Under the pieces are notes generated by a model. It was not told the DNA's origin. It searched no databases and saw nothing but the letters and a program-made list of their open reading frames with translations. Positions 3,331 through 32,330 of a stretch of 32,330 bases of DNA are shown here, in pieces (position 1 is the first letter of the stretch; each line of letters starts with the position of its first letter). Location: NCBI RefSeq assembly GCF_015207665.1, contig NZ_JADEWL010000077.1, positions 1 to 32,330 on the forward strand, in the 5' to 3' direction. Made by a program: the position numbers and the translations under genes. Origin of the DNA: Plectonema cf. radiosum LEGE 06105 (lineage in GTDB: Bacteria; Cyanobacteriota; Cyanobacteriia; Cyanobacteriales; Nostocaceae).

Positions 3331-3551
3331 AACTCCTAACTCCTAACCCCTAACTCCAAACTCCAAACTCCTAACCCCTAACTCCAAACTCCAAACTCCT
3401 AACTCCTAACTCCAAACCCCTAACTCCAAACCCCTAACTCCAAACCCCTAACTCCAAACCCCCAACTCCAAACTCCAAACTCCTAACTCAAAACTCCAAA
3501 CTCCTAACTCAAAACTCAAAACTCCTAACTCAAAACTCAAAACTCCTAACT
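3331..3551. repeat. Long STRR block of AACTCCT/AACTCCA/AACCCCT heptamers
   Basis: About 220 bp is made almost wholly of 7-base units of the type AACTCCT, AACTCCA, AACCCCT and AACTCAA, fading into AACTCAA near the 3' end. It fills the spacer between the Ccb-like gene and the DUF456 gene. AACTCCT is the reverse complement of the AGGAGTT unit at 13757-13851. There are no unique spacers, so this is not a CRISPR array. Confidence 0.95.
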
Positions 3552-9828: not shown

Positions 9829-10104
9829 ATGAAATCTCTTCTTAGTCTTTCTTTAATTGGGTTAGCTTTAACTGCATTTACACCATCAGTTTTAGCTGGG
9901 CAAACCACAACCCGCACTGGTCCAAATGGTAAAACTCAGACCACCAATCGTACCTATGGAAATGGGCAGCAAACCACAACCCGCACTAGTCCAAATGGTA
10001 AAACTCAGACCACCAATCGTACCTATGGAAATGGGCAGCAAACTACAACTCGCACTGGTCCAAATGGTAAAACTCAGACCACCAATCGTACCTATGGAAA
10101 TTAG
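9829..10104 (+). CDS. Small secreted protein made of three 23-residue repeats
   Basis: The 91-residue protein has a signal peptide (MKSLLSLSLIGLALT...SVLAG). The rest is three near-identical 23-residue units rich in Thr, Asn, Gln and Gly. Each unit itself looks like a doubled half-motif of the type TTxRTxxNGxxQ (TTTRTGPNGKTQ then TTNRTYGNGQQ). The third unit ends early at TYGN plus stop. The matching DNA units start at 9901, 9970 and 10039, with a 69 bp period and only one or two differences between copies. There are no cysteines, and no hydrophobic segments outside the signal peptide. I do not recognise a function. The composition suggests a surface or matrix protein. It follows the Spy-like gene at 55 bp and ends before a strong terminator. 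Confidence 0.8.
   Translation: MKSLLSLSLIGLALTAFTPSVLAGQTTTRTGPNGKTQTTNRTYGNGQQTTTRTSPNGKTQTTNRTYGNGQQTTTRTGPNGKTQTTNRTYGN
9901..10101 (+). repeat. 69 bp in-frame minisatellite, about 2.9 copies
   Basis: Units begin at 9901, 9970 and 10039. Units 1 and 2 differ at one base and units 1 and 3 at two over the shared length. Because the period is a multiple of three, gain or loss of a unit keeps the frame, so copy number may vary between strains. Confidence 0.92.
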
Positions 10105-13756: not shown

Positions 13757-13851
13757 AGTTAGGAGTTAGGAGTTAGGAGTTAGGAGTTAGGAGTTAGGAG
13801 TTAGGAGTTAGGAGTTAGGAGTTAGGAGTTAGGAGTTAGGAGTTAGGAGTT
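13757..13851. repeat. STRR block of (AGGAGTT)n, about 13 copies
   Basis: A near-perfect 7-base tandem repeat AGGAGTT fills 95 bp of the spacer between the epimerase-like gene and pdhA. It is the reverse complement of the AACTCCT unit at 3331-3551. Confidence 0.95.
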
Positions 13852-13870
13852 ATTACTTATTACTTAGCAT

Positions 13871-24906: not shown

Positions 24907-25199
24907 TTTTGTTATATTTTAATTGAAGATTTACGCAATAATTTATACTGAAAAAATCAGCTTAAAATTTGACTATATTTCAAGATAATTTTAAAGGTAA
25001 ATCGAAAGTTTTATCATCATCTTAAAGAAGTAGCTCTGACTCTTACCAAAGTTGGATTATTAAATCAAAGTGAGCGCTGGCTCCAAGCAACCAGGATAAT
25101 AGTTTCAAGCTGAAAAATTCATCGAATTCACCTTGTGTTAAGAGATTGGGTAATATCATGTCCGGTTAAACACTTGTCATAAAGTTGGCTTGGCAATAA
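24907..25199. other. Spacer upstream of the efflux adaptor gene
   Basis: About 290 bp, AT-rich, presumably carrying the promoter of the efflux genes. No operator, regulator gene or hairpin that I can support is seen here. Confidence 0.5.
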
Positions 25200-25314
25200 T
25201 TACCCATCACCCATTACCCATTACCCATCACCAATTACCCATCACCCATTACCTATTACCCATCACCAATTACCCATCACCAATTACCAATTACCAATTA
25301 CCAATTACCAATTA
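25200..25314. repeat. STRR block of TTACCCA/TCACCCA/TTACCAA heptamers
   Basis: A 115 bp run of 7-base units (TACCCAT, CACCCAT, TACCAAT types) ends exactly at the stop codon of the next gene on the minus strand. It is the same class as the other tracts but with a different heptamer. Confidence 0.92.
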
Positions 25315-27102
25315 TTAATTAAGCTTACGTTCATAAATTACATTACCTTGAGCATCATAAACAATCAGGGGTACGTCAGCATTATCACTAATTGCTTCTA
25401 AGGCTTGCTGCAATGTCTGTAAGTGCTGGTTGACACCTGCAATAATTTCTGGGTCTCCTTGAGCGCTGGCTTCCATCAAGCTGTCTTGGAGGCTTTGCTC
25501 GTAATCGGGAGCTATCCGCACGGTAATTCCTTGGTTATTCATGATGTAAGTACAAACACGAACTTCACCGGAACAGGTTCGATCTAAATCGGAACGGGTT
25601 TTTTGTATACGACTGTAAACATTTAGCTTTTCTTGCGCTTGTTCGAGAGAAACAGATGCAGGTTCAATTAATTTTTGGGCTTCGGTATTATATGGACTGT
25701 TGCTGGAAACTTGTTTTGCAGAACTCAAAGCCGTTTGCCACTGCGCTACTGCTGCATTCCACTGGTTTTGCTCTTCGTAACTTTTGGCAAGATTAACAGC
25801 GTTGAGTGCTTGTTTATAAGCTTTGGCTGCCATTAATTCATTTGTATTGCGGTTTTTTACTGCTAATAATCGGGGTTTATACTCGAATATCAGTTTTTGT
25901 GCATCTGAATATGCCGAACTTCCCAAAGGAATCACAGCTAATGCATTAATTACAACTTGCCAAGTAGATTCAACTTGTTGCCATTCTGAAGTGGTTTTGG
26001 CGGTTGTTTCTCGTTTTTCGGCAACTATAGATACAGCTTTGGCGGCAGTAATTTTTTTCAACCACTTATCTTCTGCTAGTAACTGTTGGTTAACTGCTTG
26101 CAAATTATCGCGATAGCTTACTGCTTTTGCTTGTACAAATTCATACAGCGCGTCATTGCGACTAATTGCCTCTATTGGTGCGATCGCTTGCCGCCATAAT
26201 CTTTTTCTATCTTGTAATTCTGATAAACTTGAGACGGGTACTTGACTTTTCTGAGTGGCGATTTGTGCTGCTTGAGTTGCTGTAAATACCTGTTGTATTT
26301 GTTGTGATTTCTCGGACAAACTGAGCGCTAGCTGTTGCGATTGTTGAGAATAAGGAGAGAAGCCGGGAATTTTGCCTAGACTTGTTGTGGTAAAATCTAT
26401 TTTGCGCTGTAATCTAGCTAAATCTTGTTCGGAGTTGATTTTACCGATCAGTTCTCCATAAGAATTATTCAAATACTCTGCGGTTTTGAGTTGATTACAC
26501 TTGGTTATCAAACAAGGACGAGTTGCAATGTAGGCACCTGCTAAAGTTGCGGAAACTATTACCCCAATTACCGTAAGCAATATTAATTTGGGGTTAAAAC
26601 CGACCAAGTTTGATTCTAACCGGGGAACGCCGCTCGCCTTACTGCTCGCCGAGAATCGGCGGAGTACCGGCGACTTTGTTGATACAGGTATTTTGTCAAG
26701 ATAATTATTAGACTCATCTTCCTTAATTGGTGAATAGATCAAGGCTGAAGAATTCTCAACATCAGAAAGTTCTGGCTTTTTATTAGTATTAATGTATTGT
26801 TTTTCTATAGTTAAGGAACGTTTAGCATAAGGAAGCTTGACTCCGACTACTCGCAAAAAAATCTCTATTTTTTCTTGTGGGTACTCGCGGGAATTATTTT
26901 GCAACGCTTCTTGAAGAACTGTAAAAATATGTTGGGTATCGACTGCCACACCTTGGGGATGCTCAGTTAAAATCATCAACTGGTGATTTTTTACAGCACA
27001 CTTAACCCCAAAGAATTCTCCAGATCGAACGTCTGCACGTAAGTATTCCTCTAAATTGCTTGCTAATAATTGTAAATTGTCCTGCTGAGTCGCTACTGTC
27101 AT
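25315..27102 (-). CDS. Single-span membrane protein of unknown function
   Basis: The 595-residue protein is one I do not recognise. It has an N-terminal soluble alpha/beta domain (about 1-110) and a polar linker (about 110-165). One membrane span follows (LILLTVIGVIVSATLAGAYIA, about 171-191), then RPCLITKC with two close cysteines just after the membrane. A long helical region (about 205-500) contains motifs that look like TPR or coiled-coil segments. A small C-terminal domain (about 500-595) has a CSGEVRVC cysteine pair and the ending DVPLIVYDAQGNVIYERKL. The four cysteines after the span could form disulfides if that side is periplasmic. The gene stands alone between long spacers. Confidence 0.8.
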   Translation of the reverse strand: MTVATQQDNLQLLASNLEEYLRADVRSGEFFGVKCAVKNHQLMILTEHPQGVAVDTQHIFTVLQEALQNNSREYPQEKIEIFLRVVGVKLPYAKRSLTIEKQYINTNKKPELSDVENSSALIYSPIKEDESNNYLDKIPVSTKSPVLRRFSASSKASGVPRLESNLVGFNPKLILLTVIGVIVSATLAGAYIATRPCLITKCNQLKTAEYLNNSYGELIGKINSEQDLARLQRKIDFTTTSLGKIPGFSPYSQQSQQLALSLSEKSQQIQQVFTATQAAQIATQKSQVPVSSLSELQDRKRLWRQAIAPIEAISRNDALYEFVQAKAVSYRDNLQAVNQQLLAEDKWLKKITAAKAVSIVAEKRETTAKTTSEWQQVESTWQVVINALAVIPLGSSAYSDAQKLIFEYKPRLLAVKNRNTNELMAAKAYKQALNAVNLAKSYEEQNQWNAAVAQWQTALSSAKQVSSNSPYNTEAQKLIEPASVSLEQAQEKLNVYSRIQKTRSDLDRTCSGEVRVCTYIMNNQGITVRIAPDYEQSLQDSLMEASAQGDPEIIAGVNQHLQTLQQALEAISDNADVPLIVYDAQGNVIYERKLN

Positions 27103-27821
27103 AAAGCCCTGTTCCGTTTATCAGAAATTAAAGTTTGTTCAAGCAAGTAGGATTAACTTTTGACGAACTAGTCGCTATATCAAATCCGAACGTTCATTTT
27201 GTAACACAATAGACGAGTTTTTACAAAAAGCTTAACTATCAACTAAGCTCTTATTTCTAAATCATCTCAAGGATAACTCCATTTATTTTGATTGCAGAGT
27301 AAATACGTAATTATCTGCCTTTCTCCCTCAACCTAATTACTTTATAAAATATTTTTATCGATATGATAAATTTTCGCACAAAGGGCGGGAATAATAAGAA
27401 TTTGCAATATTTTGACGTTTTGAATTTTGGCAGAAATTGTTTTAAAAATTAATAAATAAGTCTCCAGGCAGATACATTTTTCTACCGATAATATTTAATA
27501 TTACTTTTGATGAAAAATTACTCAACGCCCTAATTGGTGGGATGTATAGCTATCTACCAATTAAATTGCGACTTCCGAAAAAAATGTAAGCATTTTTACT
27601 GATATTATGTATTACTTCCTATAAAGTAATAGTTGTGAAAATCAATTTTTAATTTACCCTAACTACACTATTGGATAAAATTAATAATAGAAAGATAACT
27701 GGTTTTTAACAGCTTGTTTTTTACGGCTTGAAATTAAAAACAGATTGTTAGGGTGTATGCTGTATGTTTTAGACAGCACCGTAGTAAACCTCCACAAGTT
27801 GTAATAGAAAGGTGTGCGTCA
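27103..27821. other. Long AT-rich divergent spacer
   Basis: About 720 bp between the unknown single-span protein gene (-) and the sucC-like gene (+). No gene, repeat family member or clear hairpin is seen. An in-frame ATG at 27753 would add 23 residues to the sucC-like protein, but they do not belong to the family, so this is treated as leader. Confidence 0.55.
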
Positions 27822-29069
27822 ATGGAATTATTGGAATATCAAGTAAAAGAATGGTTTGGAAAAATAGGTATTCCCGTATTACCTTCCCAAACAATTGACC
27901 ATCCTACCGATCTTAAACGTTTACAAATTAATTATCCAATAGTTTTGAAATCTCAAATTTATGCTGGAGGACGCGCAAAAGCTGGTGGAATCAGGTTTGT
28001 AGAAACTACAATCGATGCGATCGCAGCCGCGCAAAACATTTTTAATTTATCGATTTATGGCGAATTACCCGAAGTTTTATTAGCGGAAACGAAATATAAC
28101 ATTGAACAAGAGTTTTATTTAGCGATTGTTTTAGATACTGCTGTATGTCGTCCGATACTATTGGGCTGTAATGAAGCGGATATAGATTGGGATGAAGCGG
28201 GAGAGAAAATGCAGCACGTTGTAGTCGAAGAGCGATTTTCTCCGTTTTATGCTCGTAGATTAGCTTTAAAAATGGGCTTACAAGGAACGCTGATGCAGTC
28301 GGTAAGCAACGTCATCGAAAAAATGTACCAATTGTTTATAGAAAAAGACCTGGATTTGGTAGAAATTAACCCTCTAGGTGTAGATTCTTCCGGACAAGTA
28401 GTGGCTTTGAATGGCAACGTCAGCATAAATGAAAGAGCTATCCGTCGTCATCCAGATATTGCTGTGATGGCTCGAAAATTGGCTAGTCGTGACATCTCAA
28501 AACAGACTAATGGCAAAATTGGTAATTGGGATGGAACCCAAATGCGCGGTAAGATTGGTATTTTAGGAAACGGTGCTGGTTCGGTGATGGCAACTTTAGA
28601 TTTAGTTGTCAGCAATGGTGGTAAACCTGGAGTATGTCTAAATTTGCGACACGCATTTCTGACTGACACTATACCAACAACTTTTAACAGCCGTTTGCAA
28701 CAAGCATTGCAAATCTTAGCTGCTGATAAAAGTATTCAAGTAATACTGATTAACTTTTTAGGTAGTATTCCTCAAGCAACAGAAGTCGCGGAGTTAATTG
28801 CCAATTTTATTCACAAGCAACCCAATCAATTTAGTCCCCAAGGGTTTATTACCAATGGTACGAATAGTACGAATGGTAATAAAGGTTTTCGGGAAGGTTG
28901 TTCTCTTCCTAATTTGATTATTCGTTTAGCTGGCTCCGATTTGGATATAGCTAAAAAATATTTATCAAATTTAACCATCGAAGGAGAAAGTCCGATATTG
29001 CTAGTAGAAAGTTTAGATAATGCGGTAGCTCAAGCAGTTAAATTATCAAAAATTAGCGCTAAAAAGTAA
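27822..29069 (+). CDS. Succinyl-CoA synthetase beta subunit-like protein, active site altered
   Basis: The 415-residue protein aligns end to end with SucC: an ATP-grasp N-terminal half (MELLEYQVKEWF, then KSQIYAGGRAKAGG at about 43-56) and a C-terminal ligase domain. E181 and N183 in VEINPL are kept. The Mg-ligand aspartate of E. coli (D213, in LDGK) is N197 here (LNGN). The glycine-rich loop after FLDV is replaced by LNLRHAFLTD (about 273-282), and the later FGGI segment reads LGSI. A Ser/Thr/Asn-rich insert (about 348-358) interrupts the C-terminal domain. The ATG at 27822 has AAAGG upstream and starts where the family starts. I therefore leave the symbol blank: it is SucC-like, but succinate ligase activity is doubtful. 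Confidence 0.85.
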   Translation: MELLEYQVKEWFGKIGIPVLPSQTIDHPTDLKRLQINYPIVLKSQIYAGGRAKAGGIRFVETTIDAIAAAQNIFNLSIYGELPEVLLAETKYNIEQEFYLAIVLDTAVCRPILLGCNEADIDWDEAGEKMQHVVVEERFSPFYARRLALKMGLQGTLMQSVSNVIEKMYQLFIEKDLDLVEINPLGVDSSGQVVALNGNVSINERAIRRHPDIAVMARKLASRDISKQTNGKIGNWDGTQMRGKIGILGNGAGSVMATLDLVVSNGGKPGVCLNLRHAFLTDTIPTTFNSRLQQALQILAADKSIQVILINFLGSIPQATEVAELIANFIHKQPNQFSPQGFITNGTNSTNGNKGFREGCSLPNLIIRLAGSDLDIAKKYLSNLTIEGESPILLVESLDNAVAQAVKLSKISAKK

Positions 29070-29313
29070 CTTTTAAATCTATAGGAATCCGGTTTAATTT
29101 GTGTTGTTCGGCTATGGTGGCGCAGCCATATAACTCCTAGCGGTTAGGGACTAGGGGGTAGGCATTAGGGAAAAGAAAATATACTGAGTCTTTTATACAA
29201 AATTCAAATAGGAGTACCATATGTTCTGATACCAATTCTTAATCGTCCTTAGCGGGGTTATACAAACTAAGCCTACCTTAAGGGTGGGCTACATTTAGTG
29301 GCTATTTATCAAT
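29070..29313. other. Spacer after the sucC-like gene with repeat remnants
   Basis: It holds a degenerate TTAGGGACTAGGG-type heptamer run (about 29143-29170) and a small hairpin AGCCTACC...GGGTGGGCT (about 29270-29290). No gene is seen. The sucC-like and sucD-like genes are 633 bp apart, so they may be separately transcribed. Confidence 0.5.
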
Positions 29314-29402
29314 AGACATCTCCGAAAAAGAATGTAGAGACGCAAGGGTTCGCGTCTCTACAAGGTTTCTGGATGATGCATATTTGATTTCCGGAGATGT
29401 CT
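29314..29402 (-). mobile_element. MITE-like 89 bp element, copy 2
   Basis: The ends AGACATCTCCG and CGGAGATGTCT are perfect 11 bp inverted repeats. An internal hairpin, TGTAGAGACGC-8 nt-GCGTCTCTACA, is perfect. The reverse complement matches the element at 4250-4339 over its full length with scattered differences. AAT flanks both ends. It lies between the sucC-like and sucD-like genes. Confidence 0.7.
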
Positions 29403-29702
29403 AATAAATATTTTTAGGTGGTAAAAAATCAGCGATTAAAAAACTAGATACAGACAGTTTCCACAGCACCTACTACAACGATTGTGTTCCTCTGCTTTCC
29501 GAGTTGCTATCCAGATGAAATTAAACATTAACCTTTCAATAACCTTATCTTAATCTAGAATCTTTTTTTTTACAAGGTTCTAAATTATTTTTGGTTTATC
29601 TGATTCGCGATAGGCTAAACGTGAAGCCTTTTACATATCGTGGTAATACTGTTTCTTAGTGACTTTAACGGCTAAGTTCTCCTTCAACTATTATGTTTTT
29701 TT

Positions 29703-30584
29703 ATGAATTTAACGCCAGAGAGTAAAGTAATCATCCAGGGATTTAGCGAGTTTATTTCAGCGAGCCATATTGCTCAAATGAAAGCTTACGGAACAAATTT
29801 AGTGGCCGGGGTGAATCCGGGATGCGGTGGAAGTAAACTGTGTGATTTACCCGTATTTGATTTAGTTGAGCAAGTGGTAGATAAATTTGGGGATATCGAT
29901 ACCACAATTATCTGCGTACATCCTTATCAAGTTTTAGATGCAGCATTAGAAGCCATGGCTTGTGGTATCAATCAAATTATTATCATTTCTCCTGGAGTAC
30001 CTCCGTTAGACATGGTGAATTTATTTCGTCGTGCTGAAACAGAGGAAACCATAATTGTCGGACCAAATAGCCCTGGAATTATTGTACCGGGAAAGATTTT
30101 ATTGGGGACTCACCCCAGCGAATTTTACATTCCCGGAGAAGTGGGAATAGTTAGTCGTAGCACCACTTTAACCTATGAAATTGCCTGGGAATTGACACAG
30201 GTAGGATTGGGACAGTCAATTAGTGTGAGTATCGGCAGTGATGGGGTTGTGGGTTCTTCGTTTATCCAGTGGTTGCAAATTTTGGATGAAGATGAAAATA
30301 CTCAAGTAATTGTTTTAGTAGGTCAACCTGGTGGAGGACGTGAAGAAGCCGCAGCAGCTTACATATCTGAAATGATAGATAAACCAGTTATAGCTTATAT
30401 TGCCGGATTACACGCACCACCTGCAAAACATTGGCGACAAACGGGGACATTAGCAGCAGTCATCGGACGCGATCCGGAATTTGGTTCTGCAAAAAGTAAA
30501 TTAACAGCCTTTAAACAAGCGAAAATACCTGTAGCAGAACGTCCTTCTCAGATTGCGGAATTGGTAAATAAGGCATTGAAATAA
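29703..30584 (+). CDS. Succinyl-CoA synthetase alpha subunit-like protein lacking the catalytic histidine
   Basis: The 293-residue protein aligns end to end with SucD: a CoA-binding Rossmann half (VIIQGFSE..., GVNPGCGG) and a ligase half (GIVSRSTTLTYE). The phosphohistidine of the family (H246 in the GHAGA motif of E. coli) is Q246 here (RQTGT). Its partner glutamate in GEIGG is Q208 (GQPGG). The CoA-binding TGSQGT is replaced by SEFISA (15-20), GPNCPG reads GPNSPG (S123), and the SRSGT glycine is T154. The frame is intact and the surrounding sequence is well kept. It is most likely a paralogue that no longer does the standard phosphoryl-transfer chemistry. No strong Shine-Dalgarno. A hairpin terminator follows. 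Confidence 0.87.
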   Translation: MNLTPESKVIIQGFSEFISASHIAQMKAYGTNLVAGVNPGCGGSKLCDLPVFDLVEQVVDKFGDIDTTIICVHPYQVLDAALEAMACGINQIIIISPGVPPLDMVNLFRRAETEETIIVGPNSPGIIVPGKILLGTHPSEFYIPGEVGIVSRSTTLTYEIAWELTQVGLGQSISVSIGSDGVVGSSFIQWLQILDEDENTQVIVLVGQPGGGREEAAAAYISEMIDKPVIAYIAGLHAPPAKHWRQTGTLAAVIGRDPEFGSAKSKLTAFKQAKIPVAERPSQIAELVNKALK

Positions 30585-30591
30585 TTTAACT

Positions 30592-30637
30592 AAAAACCTG
30601 ACTTCTAATTTTGTGCGGGGAAAGAAGTCGGGTTTTT
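30592..30637 (+). terminator. AGAAGTCGGGTTTTT hairpin, terminator of the sucD-like gene
   Basis: AAAAACCTGACTTCT pairs with AGAAGTCGGGTTTTT (one weak pair) and ends in a T run. It begins 8 bp after the stop codon. A further inverted arm AAAAAACCCGACTTCT follows at 30672-30687. Same repeat family as 4117-4230 and 7138-7201. Confidence 0.7.
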
Positions 30638-30803
30638 ATTTGAAATATCTGTTACCCAAGAAAATCATCGTAAAAAACCCGACTTCTCGGCGTTTATTTT
30701 AACCTTTGACCAAAAATAAAGGTTGATACCACTCTACAAATAAGTACCCTTGCCCGGTATGATATGTAATCAGCCCTATTTTTAAGAATCCTTTAAAACT
30801 ACT

Positions 30804-31889
30804 ATGACCCAAAACTACCGCATTACCCTACTTCCCGGTGATGGTATCGGACCTGAAATCATGGCAGTAGCGGTAGATGTACTCAAAGTCGTAGGAAAGA
30901 AATTTGACATCCGGTTTGAATTTCAAGAAGCCTTAATTGGTGGTGCTGCGATCGATCGCACAGGTGAACCTCTTCCAGAAACTACATTAAAAACTTGTCG
31001 CGATAGCGATGCTGTTTTACTCGCTGCGATCGGTGGTTATAAATGGGATGAATTACCATCTGATAAGCGTCCCGAAGCTGGTTTGTTGGGATTACGGGCT
31101 GGTTTAGAATTATTTGCTAATTTGCGCCCAGCGAAAATCATTCCTCAATTAATTGACGCTTCAACTCTTAAAAAAGAAGTTGTTGAAGGTGTTGATATTA
31201 TGGTGGTGCGGGAACTGACTGGTGGAATTTACTTTGGTAAACCCAAAGGCATTTTTGATACGGAAACCGGCGAAAAGCGGGGAATAAATACAATGGTGTA
31301 TACTGAGGCGGAAATTGAACGCATTGGTAGAGTTGCTTTTGAAACAGCCCGCAAACGAGGAGGTAAACTTTGTTCTGTAGATAAAGCCAATGTTTTGGAA
31401 GTATCTCAACTGTGGCGCACGACTATGACTCAACTGGCTGAAGAATACCCCGATGTAGAATTATCTCATCTTTATGTAGATAATGCTGCTATGCAGTTGG
31501 TTCGCGCTCCCAAACAGTTTGATACTATCGTCACCGGAAATTTATTCGGCGATATTCTTTCCGATGCAGCAGCCATGCTTACCGGCAGTATTGGTATGCT
31601 ACCATCTGCTAGTCTAGGCGCATCCTCCCCCGGAGTATTTGAACCAGTCCATGGTTCAGCTCCTGATATCGCAGGAGAAGATAAAGCCAATCCCTTAGCA
31701 CAAATTCTCAGCGCAGCCATGATGCTACGTTATGGTTTAAATCAAGCCGATGCAGCCAACCACATAGAACAAGCTGTGTTGCAAGTTTTACAAAATGGTT
31801 TTCGTACTGGGGATATAATGTCCGCAGGAATGAATCAAGTGGGTTGCCGAGCTATGGGTGAAGCAATGATTCAAACTTTAGAGAAATAA
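30804..31889 (+). CDS. leuB: 3-isopropylmalate dehydrogenase
   Basis: LeuB oxidises and decarboxylates 3-isopropylmalate to 2-oxoisocaproate with NAD+ in leucine biosynthesis. The 361-residue protein is full length and begins with the typical [14 protein letters not shown]. It keeps the substrate-binding LRPAK and [10 protein letters not shown] segments, the catalytic tyrosine in the latter, and the lysine of DKANVLE. It ends with the metal-binding and family signature [19 protein letters not shown]. The ATG at 30804 gives the expected N-terminus. No other leu gene is nearby, which is common in cyanobacteria. A stable hairpin (31928-31961) follows. Confidence 0.97.
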
Positions 31890-31927
31890 TTATAAATAAT
31901 AGTTTTAAATTACTTTTCTAATTCTCA

Positions 31928-31961
31928 CGAAAGATTTTAACTTCCATTGTTAAAACTTTCG
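31928..31961. terminator. CGAAAG hairpin after leuB, possible terminator
   Basis: CGAAAG plus TTTTAAC pairs with GTTAAAA plus CTTTCG: 13 base pairs with one bulged A around a 7 nt loop. It is 39 bp after the leuB stop. It lacks a strong T run, so termination is likely but not certain. Confidence 0.5.
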
Positions 31962-32004
31962 GATAAACTTAATTGAAAACCTAGCCAAATAACAAAAGTA
32001 ATTC

Positions 32005-32265
32005 GTGTACGCATTACGACAAGGGCAGCAAAATTTTACGAACCCCGTGACACAATCTCCGTTGATTGACTCTTCTCTCATCCGGTCTGCGGGTCAAATA
32101 TATTACACTTACTGCGAGGTGCATCCGGAAATGGCAGGACAAGCTTCAGGAGTCGCGATTAATCGCGGAAATCATCGAGGAAAGGTAATTTTTACTCTCC
32201 AACCAGTACTTTTACCACAAGAGTGTTTCGTTCCGTTAAGTCAAATCGAATCTCATATGTATTAA
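32005..32265 (+). CDS. Hypothetical protein, weak candidate
   Basis: An 86-codon frame with a GTG start and no visible Shine-Dalgarno. The product is soluble, with no signal peptide or membrane span. It has a segment IYYTYCEVHPEMAGQASGVA with one cysteine, and a C-terminal KVIFTLQPVLLP strand. I do not recognise it. It could be a real small gene, a remnant, or chance. It ends just before a heptamer repeat tract. Confidence 0.35.
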   Translation: MYALRQGQQNFTNPVTQSPLIDSSLIRSAGQIYYTYCEVHPEMAGQASGVAINRGNHRGKVIFTLQPVLLPQECFVPLSQIESHMY

Positions 32266-32276
32266 TCGTTGATGGT

Positions 32277-32327
32277 GGTTAGTTGATGGTTGATAGTGGA
32301 CAGTTGACAGTGGACAGTTGACAGTTA
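32277..32327. repeat. STRR-like run of TTGATGG/ACAGTTG/ACAGTGG heptamers
   Basis: Seven-base units such as TTGATGG, ACAGTTG and ACAGTGG run in tandem to the window end, so the tract may continue beyond it. Confidence 0.75.
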
Positions 32328-32330
32328 ATT

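Follow-up and report, generated by a model that had tools for sequence, protein, structure and literature searches.

The 32,330-nucleotide stretch of DNA from Plectonema cf. radiosum LEGE 06105 that was analysed here (contig NZ_JADEWL010000077.1; referred to as the window) carries two genes whose products resemble the beta (SucC) and alpha (SucD) subunits of succinyl-coenzyme A (CoA) synthetase (SCS), the succinate-CoA ligase of the Krebs cycle (Table 1). A preliminary description of this locus had reported altered active sites in two proteins that were otherwise full length. Indeed, an open reading frame check of the window showed both frames to be intact and full length; the beta-like frame starts with the ATG at position 27822, and an alternative in-frame GTG at 27753 is possible. 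The window pair has the SCS alpha and beta folds as well as the paired gene arrangement. Both proteins matched SCS chains along most of their own length (alpha against 2yv2, 8e-61; beta against 3ufx, 7.6e-47), and in the structural alignments the identity amounted to 37-42% with SCS alpha chains and 25-31% with SCS beta chains. The scores of both proteins against the corresponding NCBIfam models stayed below the curated cut-offs, with 274.1 bits for alpha against TIGR01019 (SucD, cut-off 353.2) and 215.6 bits for beta against TIGR01016 (SucC, cut-off 375.55). As set out below, this pair is kept under strong selection in heterocyst-forming cyanobacteria and probably has a job that differs from the one its name implies.

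Table 1. Genes and residues of the SucCD-like pair in the window.
Feature	Position	Strand	Remark
SucC-like (beta) gene	27822..29069	+	415 aa; ATP-grasp domain and CoA-ligase-like C-terminal domain
Beta GGRAKAGG, retained ATP-grasp glycine loop	27966..27989	+	E. coli GGRGKAGG, one Gly replaced by Ala
Beta N197, replaces Mg-ligand Asp213	28410..28412	+	codon AAT
Beta N250-G-A-G253, beta power helix tip, retained	28569..28580	+	
Beta R276-H277, new fixed pair, replaces first two Gly of GGGA	28647..28652	+	
Gap between beta and alpha genes	29070..29702	+	633 bp; contains inverted repeats at 29311-29403
SucD-like (alpha) gene	29703..30584	+	293 aa
Alpha C41, at canonical Lys42	29823..29825	+	
Alpha S151-R152-S153-T154-T155, alpha power helix tip, retained	30153..30167	+	
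Alpha Q208, replaces partner glutamate (E. coli E208)	30324..30326	+	codon CAA
Alpha W244, new fixed residue of former phosphohistidine loop	30432..30434	+	
Alpha Q246, replaces phosphohistidine (E. coli H246)	30438..30440	+	codon CAA

Residues were mapped by aligning the window proteins to E. coli K-12 SucCD, and for the CoA loop, Lys42, the Mg ligands and other positions we assume the roles that they have in the E. coli enzyme. Of the matches ranked below the top 30, the comparison at the residue level covered 60 regions, picked so as to represent different families. The Nostocaceae counts (83 rows for alpha and 79 for beta, since at four of the 83 loci the beta gene was not in the fetched stretch) are not independent, because some of the species are near-duplicates and one genome contributes two similar copies. 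In this genome, that of Mastigocoleus testarum BC008, two contigs match the pair equally, as a result of either an assembly duplicate or a real duplication.

As the preliminary description had stated, the alpha-like protein has Gln both at the place of the phosphohistidine and at that of its partner glutamate. Q208 was found in all 83 Nostocaceae rows, and column 246 is occupied by Q in 79, E in 2, T in 1, K in 1 and H in none. No substitute conserved His was found in the alpha loop across these 83 rows, His being present at column 243 in 38 of them and at column 245 in 9. Column 244 holds W in 82 of the 83 rows and M in 17 of 17 canonical rows. An E. coli SCS mutant with H246D is reportedly inactive, and the same is said of an ATP-citrate lyase mutant with Gln for the matching Glu (entry 6uuw, known to us by its title), E599 of that enzyme being what we take to be the counterpart of SCS E208. 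The positions for CoA have changed as well. Judged by sequence only, the CoA-binding loop TGSQGT has become SEFISA in the window, and E97 has become P. Lys42, which presumably serves in CoA binding, is present in 17 of 17 canonical rows and absent from all 83 Nostocaceae rows (C in 46, Y in 16, S in 11). The cysteine of GPNCPG (C123), which had also been listed as lost, is Ser in the window and in 83 of 83 Nostocaceae rows. However, this change is weak evidence, because the C123 A, S, T and V mutants of the E. coli enzyme are solved structures (known to us by title) and are said to be partly active. SCS is described as having a swinging His loop and anion-binding power-helix tips (PMC11494057). 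By our own assignment of E. coli residues to these tips, the alpha tip is retained, with S151, R152, S153 and T155 each present in all 83 rows.

In the beta-like protein, the reported replacement of the Mg-ligand Asp by Asn was borne out: N197 aligns to Asp213, and in the main alignment this column holds N in 79 of 79 Nostocaceae rows and D in all 35 beta rows from other cyanobacteria. Of the two ATP-grasp Mg ligands, Asn199 is kept as window N183 and Asp213 is lost; column 199 holds N in 68, H in 9 and K in 2 of the 79 Nostocaceae rows. The claim that the glycine-rich phosphate loop is missing was correct for the C-terminal loop only. There, R276-H277-A278-F279 followed by an insertion stands for GGGA, and R276-H277 was found in 79 of 79 Nostocaceae rows, whereas the ATP-grasp loop is kept in the window as GGRAKAGG. 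In most Nostocaceae beta rows the latter loop is more altered (e.g. GERAKAGG). K46 and R54 are present in 77 of the 77 rows with a letter there, and E99 and E107 in 78 of 78. The beta helix tip is likewise retained, with N264 in 78 and both G265 and G267 in 79 of the 79 rows (E. coli-aligned columns).

These replacements do not look like random decay, as the preliminary description had already argued. Pairwise ratios of non-synonymous to synonymous substitution rates (dN/dS) were computed by the Nei-Gojobori method with our own script for Nostocaceae pairs with dS values of 0.05-1. The median was 0.101 for alpha (maximum 0.18; 609 pairs of 82 rows) and 0.148 for beta (maximum 0.27; 242 pairs of 79 rows), which is well below 1 and indicates purifying selection on the Gln-type pairs. 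Every row used (82 for alpha, 79 for beta) had a frame longer than 250 aa; because the rows were collected as open frames, broken copies may be under-represented. Residues were counted as family-specific and fixed when they reached at least 95% in Nostocaceae and at most 20% in both other groups. There were 9 such residues in alpha and 8 in beta, and 10 of these 17 lie in ligand loops, which make up 14.5% of positions (binomial 3e-5). This enrichment is a guide only, because the loops were picked by hand after the alignment had been seen.

The preliminary description had proposed that a second sucCD pair with the canonical His be sought in the same genome. None was found: TIGR01019 and TIGR01016 each matched one place in this genome, and for Ligase_CoA only the present pair matched, with the beta half below cut-off. 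The suggestion that the pair might be a regulator of the true enzyme is unsupported, because its own genome has no canonical SucCD. Among 292 genomes of the phylum, SucD was above the curated cut-off in 24 and SucC in 18, none of which belongs to the class of the window. Full-length alpha genes were present in 32 of 32 genomes of the same family (own genome included), 48 of 51 others of the same order and 9 others of the same class; beta genes were found in 32 of 32, 49 of 51 and the same 9 genomes. The sole mismatch between alpha and beta in the sampled class was a genome whose beta gene lies at a contig start. Both genes were missing from two of the 51 other genomes of the order and from further genomes of the class. 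Several genomes kept both genes even though they are far apart or on separate contigs, and the pair was also kept in Richelia intracellularis. On plasmids, the highest value for alpha against ordinary sucD was about 41% among the matches listed (15 of 105). PLSDB labels a Picosynechococcus plasmid feature, situated among mostly hypothetical genes, as ACT beta-lactamase, which is possibly a database artefact.

We also examined how the histidine was lost. All alpha proteins of the class group together in a single clade (support 100), on a stem of 0.79 changes per column. Within it, 18 His-bearing rows have kept H246 and E208 in 18 of 18 cases and K42 in only 2 of 18, and D213 is kept in 15 of 15 of their beta rows; their CoA site and C-terminal beta loops are already altered. 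A 68-row tree was built without the columns of the trait; compared with an earlier set of 82 rows, it omits 8 that were long-branched or near-identical, of which 7 lack the His, as well as 6 of 14 additional Nostocaceae. This tree requires a minimum of four changes of the His and two of E208; four His changes were also obtained on the 82-row tree. A single origin of the His loss was rejected, one clade of all His-less rows having a p-value of 0.0003 in the approximately unbiased test. The nearest His-bearing relative (L091) already has W244 and the TGT that surround the His, together with a His at position 277 of beta. The change therefore looks stepwise. The coordinated loss proposed in the preliminary description holds in that both partners are changed and kept together, but not as one event, because the CoA site and C-terminal beta loops are already altered in members of the class that still have the His, the His changed repeatedly, and the Mg-ligand change is fixed only in Nostocaceae.

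The 30 His-less rows from outside Nostocaceae have D (17), N (10) or other residues (3) in column 246. A phosphoaspartate in the rows with D was considered and thought unlikely, because Asn occupies the same place in close relatives. K46, R54, E99, E107, N199 and D213 are kept in 20 of the 20 such rows with a beta, whereas their alpha helix tip is broken up (R152 in 16 of 30, T155 in 3 of 30). Nostocaceae have the reverse pattern, with fixed helix tips and the Mg ligand D213 lost. From these alignments, each lineage seems to have kept its own parts of the old catalytic cycle. At the His place, all five Synechocystis and all six Picosynechococcus genomes have D or N; E208 is replaced by Q or H in the former and by R in the latter. 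These two genera were assigned by means of plasmid contigs whose compared stretches were identical to those of PCC 7117, PCC 7003 and PCC 7338. In Picosynechococcus, Asp213 of beta is kept in five of six rows and replaced by G in one; five rows have a His one residue before the canonical place (SCHDAG, SCHNAG or SCHDAS), where PCC 7117 has Tyr. Six loci of one further family have a strongly diverged alpha (about 28-38% identity to the window, alignment unsure) that lacks the catalytic His, and their fetched stretches contain no beta.

The inverted repeats of the intergenic gap have arms at 29311-29343/29352-29384 and 29313-29328/29388-29403, and they include a stem that resembles a terminator on the minus strand. 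Promoter and terminator scans yielded no more than expected by chance, and Rfam gave no match above gathering scores for positions 27000-32330. Beside the pair lies a divergent gene (25315-27102, minus strand; 595 aa, no Pfam match), relatives of which were found upstream in 50 fetched loci (41 from Nostocaceae, 8 from other cyanobacteria and 1 from neither). Beyond this gene, the neighbourhood of the pair suggested no pathway. Elsewhere, the window contains tandem arrays in which the unit length is seven bases or a multiple of seven (3331-3551, 13757-13852, 25198-25314 and 32281-32326), and a 69-bp unit is repeated 2.9 times at 9900-10101.

For the metabolic context, 40 Nostocaceae genomes were searched for four families that make or use succinyl-CoA. 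2-oxoglutarate dehydrogenase E1, DapD, methylmalonyl-CoA mutase and homoserine O-succinyltransferase were above the family cut-off in none of the 40, with weak sub-cut-off matches for the first in 1 genome and for DapD in 22. The homoserine O-succinyltransferase family matches the control Synechococcus elongatus, and its absence is therefore no rule for all cyanobacteria. Deletion of sucCD in Synechococcus 7002, a member of Picosynechococcus, made growth impossible under sparging with 2% CO2, and the mutant's succinate and malate levels were down to about 60% in the light and 40% in the dark (PMC5160925). In Synechocystis, SucC/D amounts drop under heterotrophic, glucose-fed conditions (PMC9175036) and the sucD transcript rises in early light (PMC4959675). 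Cyanobacterial SucCD is treated as a succinate-CoA ligase in a review and a metabolic model (PMC7133116, PMC7999273), and its overexpression to make succinyl-CoA has been planned for Anabaena (PMC7999273).

Judged from the residues, the Nostocaceae pair is very probably not a working succinate-CoA ligase. The reading that we prefer, at somewhat less than an even chance, is that of an SCS-derived heteromer without CoA-ligase activity, which would most likely be a regulator binding a nucleotide or metabolite. The lack of ligase activity we infer strongly; the ligand binding, the regulatory role and its partner we infer weakly. The heteromer would descend from SCS and would neither make nor use succinyl-CoA by the phosphohistidine route. 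Its beta ATP-grasp half would bind nucleotide and, with one Mg ligand lost, would not transfer phosphate. The kept alpha/beta interface, where the two helix tips form a phosphate cradle in the true enzyme, would bind an anionic metabolite and would be relined with the newly fixed residues Q208, W244 and Q246 of alpha and R276 and H277 of beta. The bound state might then be passed to a partner in carbon or energy control. In favour of this reading are the missing His and Glu without a conserved His to replace them in the Nostocaceae loop, the retained fold, the low dN/dS, the retained beta residues K46, R54, E99 and E107, the clustering of newly fixed residues in ligand loops, and the four succinyl-CoA families that stayed below cut-off. 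The sensor role described for His-less SCS-like domains of GNAT acetyltransferases (PMC8556138) and the failure of the 7002 deletion to grow under 2% CO2 (PMC5160925) also favour it. Among the readings considered, a regulator of this kind, binding a nucleotide and an anion, is the most economical, followed by new chemistry and then by a scaffold.

Several points weigh against this preferred reading. The beta columns 50-55, which form the first half of the glycine loop, and the former CoA positions 16, 42 and 97 of alpha are variable across Nostocaceae, and tight binding of a nucleotide or of CoA is therefore not favoured. The only widely conserved neighbour (the 595-aa divergent gene) is uncharacterised, and the beta structure model is of middling confidence (mean predicted local distance difference test score, pLDDT, of 70.5). 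The link to the 7002 phenotype was made by genus (Picosynechococcus, six of six without the canonical His), which is another His-less clade than Nostocaceae, and its shifted His could conceivably be a working one. The authors of that study took the metabolite drop as support for SCS activity (PMC5160925). In addition, Synechocystis cells were measured to contain succinyl-CoA, from a source not known, and 2-oxoglutarate rose there when a carboxylase that uses succinyl-CoA was introduced (PMC9855186).

Among the alternatives, a new enzyme is possible but in our view doubtful. The ATP-grasp, Rossmann and flavodoxin scaffold would then catalyse a different ligase or transferase reaction, in which beta H277 or some other group might stand in for the phosphohistidine. 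The newly fixed pocket residues (beta R276-H277, alpha W244), the helix tips kept in Nostocaceae and the ATP-grasp residues kept in those His-less rows outside Nostocaceae that have a beta would suit this idea, and the recruitment of FdrA/AllF into an oxamic transcarbamylase reaction provides a precedent (PMC11326118). However, the loss of D213 in exactly this family argues against ATP-driven phosphate transfer, the CoA loop, K42 and E97 are gone, and the neighbourhood offers no pathway. That the heteromer is kept as a scaffold or moonlighting protein, in a structural or protein-protein role with empty pockets, seems less likely again. The retention of both partners even when unlinked, the repeated loss of active-site residues and the variable beta and alpha columns are consistent with a scaffold, but at other pocket positions Nostocaceae have become fixed for new residues.

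That the pair is still a succinate-CoA ligase of ordinary output, by a route without phosphohistidine or by residual activity, is improbable. This function is the one assumed in the review and the metabolic model, and the metabolite changes in the 7002 mutant (PMC5160925), the succinyl-CoA in Synechocystis (PMC9855186) and the His one residue off in five of six Picosynechococcus rows agree with it. In the window, however, the His and its Glu, an Mg ligand, K42, E97 and both the CoA and the GGGA loops have changed, the NCBIfam cut-offs are not reached, and the four succinyl-CoA families were below cut-off in 40 of 40 Nostocaceae genomes. Decay of the two genes towards loss is the least credible of these views. 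It would account for the absence of both from two genomes of the order and from further genomes of the class, but the low dN/dS medians, the frames of more than 250 aa in all rows used and the retention of the pair in Richelia intracellularis speak against it; for Nostocaceae, the selection data refute decay, provided that the dS estimates are not grossly in error.

A more far-reaching proposal, which we regard as unlikely, is that the class rebuilt SCS at its base with loss of the CoA site, and that Nostocaceae then fixed a new interface site in which beta Arg276-His277 replaced the glycine loop and took the place of the lost phosphohistidine, giving rise to an undescribed enzyme or carbon-status sensor. 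If so, the published failure of the sucCD deletion at high CO2 may already report this function. More generally, if the Nostocaceae, Synechocystis and Picosynechococcus pairs have no working phosphohistidine, the succinate-CoA ligase steps assumed in the review and the metabolic model have no enzyme, and the reported phenotype of the 7002 mutant points to an unknown function in carbon metabolism (PMC5160925).

In the literature searched, with subscription papers outside its scope, we found neither a free-standing His-less SucCD heteromer under selection across a bacterial family nor a paper noting the missing His of cyanobacterial SucCD. The regulatory domain of type I/II GNAT acetyltransferases is related to SCS, is inactive without the catalytic His and has been described as an acetyl-CoA sensor (PMC8556138). 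It differs in being a single chain fused to an acetyltransferase, and its similarity to the window is distant (28 bits); membership in this group was rejected, as no acetyltransferase domain was matched in either window protein at an E-value of 0.001. FdrA/AllF is an SCS-alpha relative that works in the oxamic transcarbamylase reaction (PMC11326118). It works with AllG and AllH and is far from the window in sequence (43 bits, compared with 455 bits for the window itself against a profile that contained the window sequence); membership was rejected with 38.1 bits for NF004760 against a cut-off of 433. E. coli SucCD shares the fold and the heteromeric gene pair, and the window retains the ATP-grasp residues Lys46, Arg54, Glu99, Glu107 and Glu197 as well as the power-helix tips. 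It differs from E. coli SucCD in lacking the phosphohistidine, Glu208, the Mg-ligand Asp213, the CoA loop and Lys42, in having RHAF plus an insertion for GGGA, and in scoring below the NCBIfam cut-offs. The His-less SucCD of Synechocystis and Picosynechococcus resembles the window in having neither a His at the H246 place nor E208, but it arose by a separate loss, has D or N for the His, and has a changed alpha helix tip. The His-containing SucCD of other Cyanobacteriia shares with the window the alpha clade, the altered CoA loop and the insertion after the beta GGGA position, and differs from it in keeping H246, E208 and D213.

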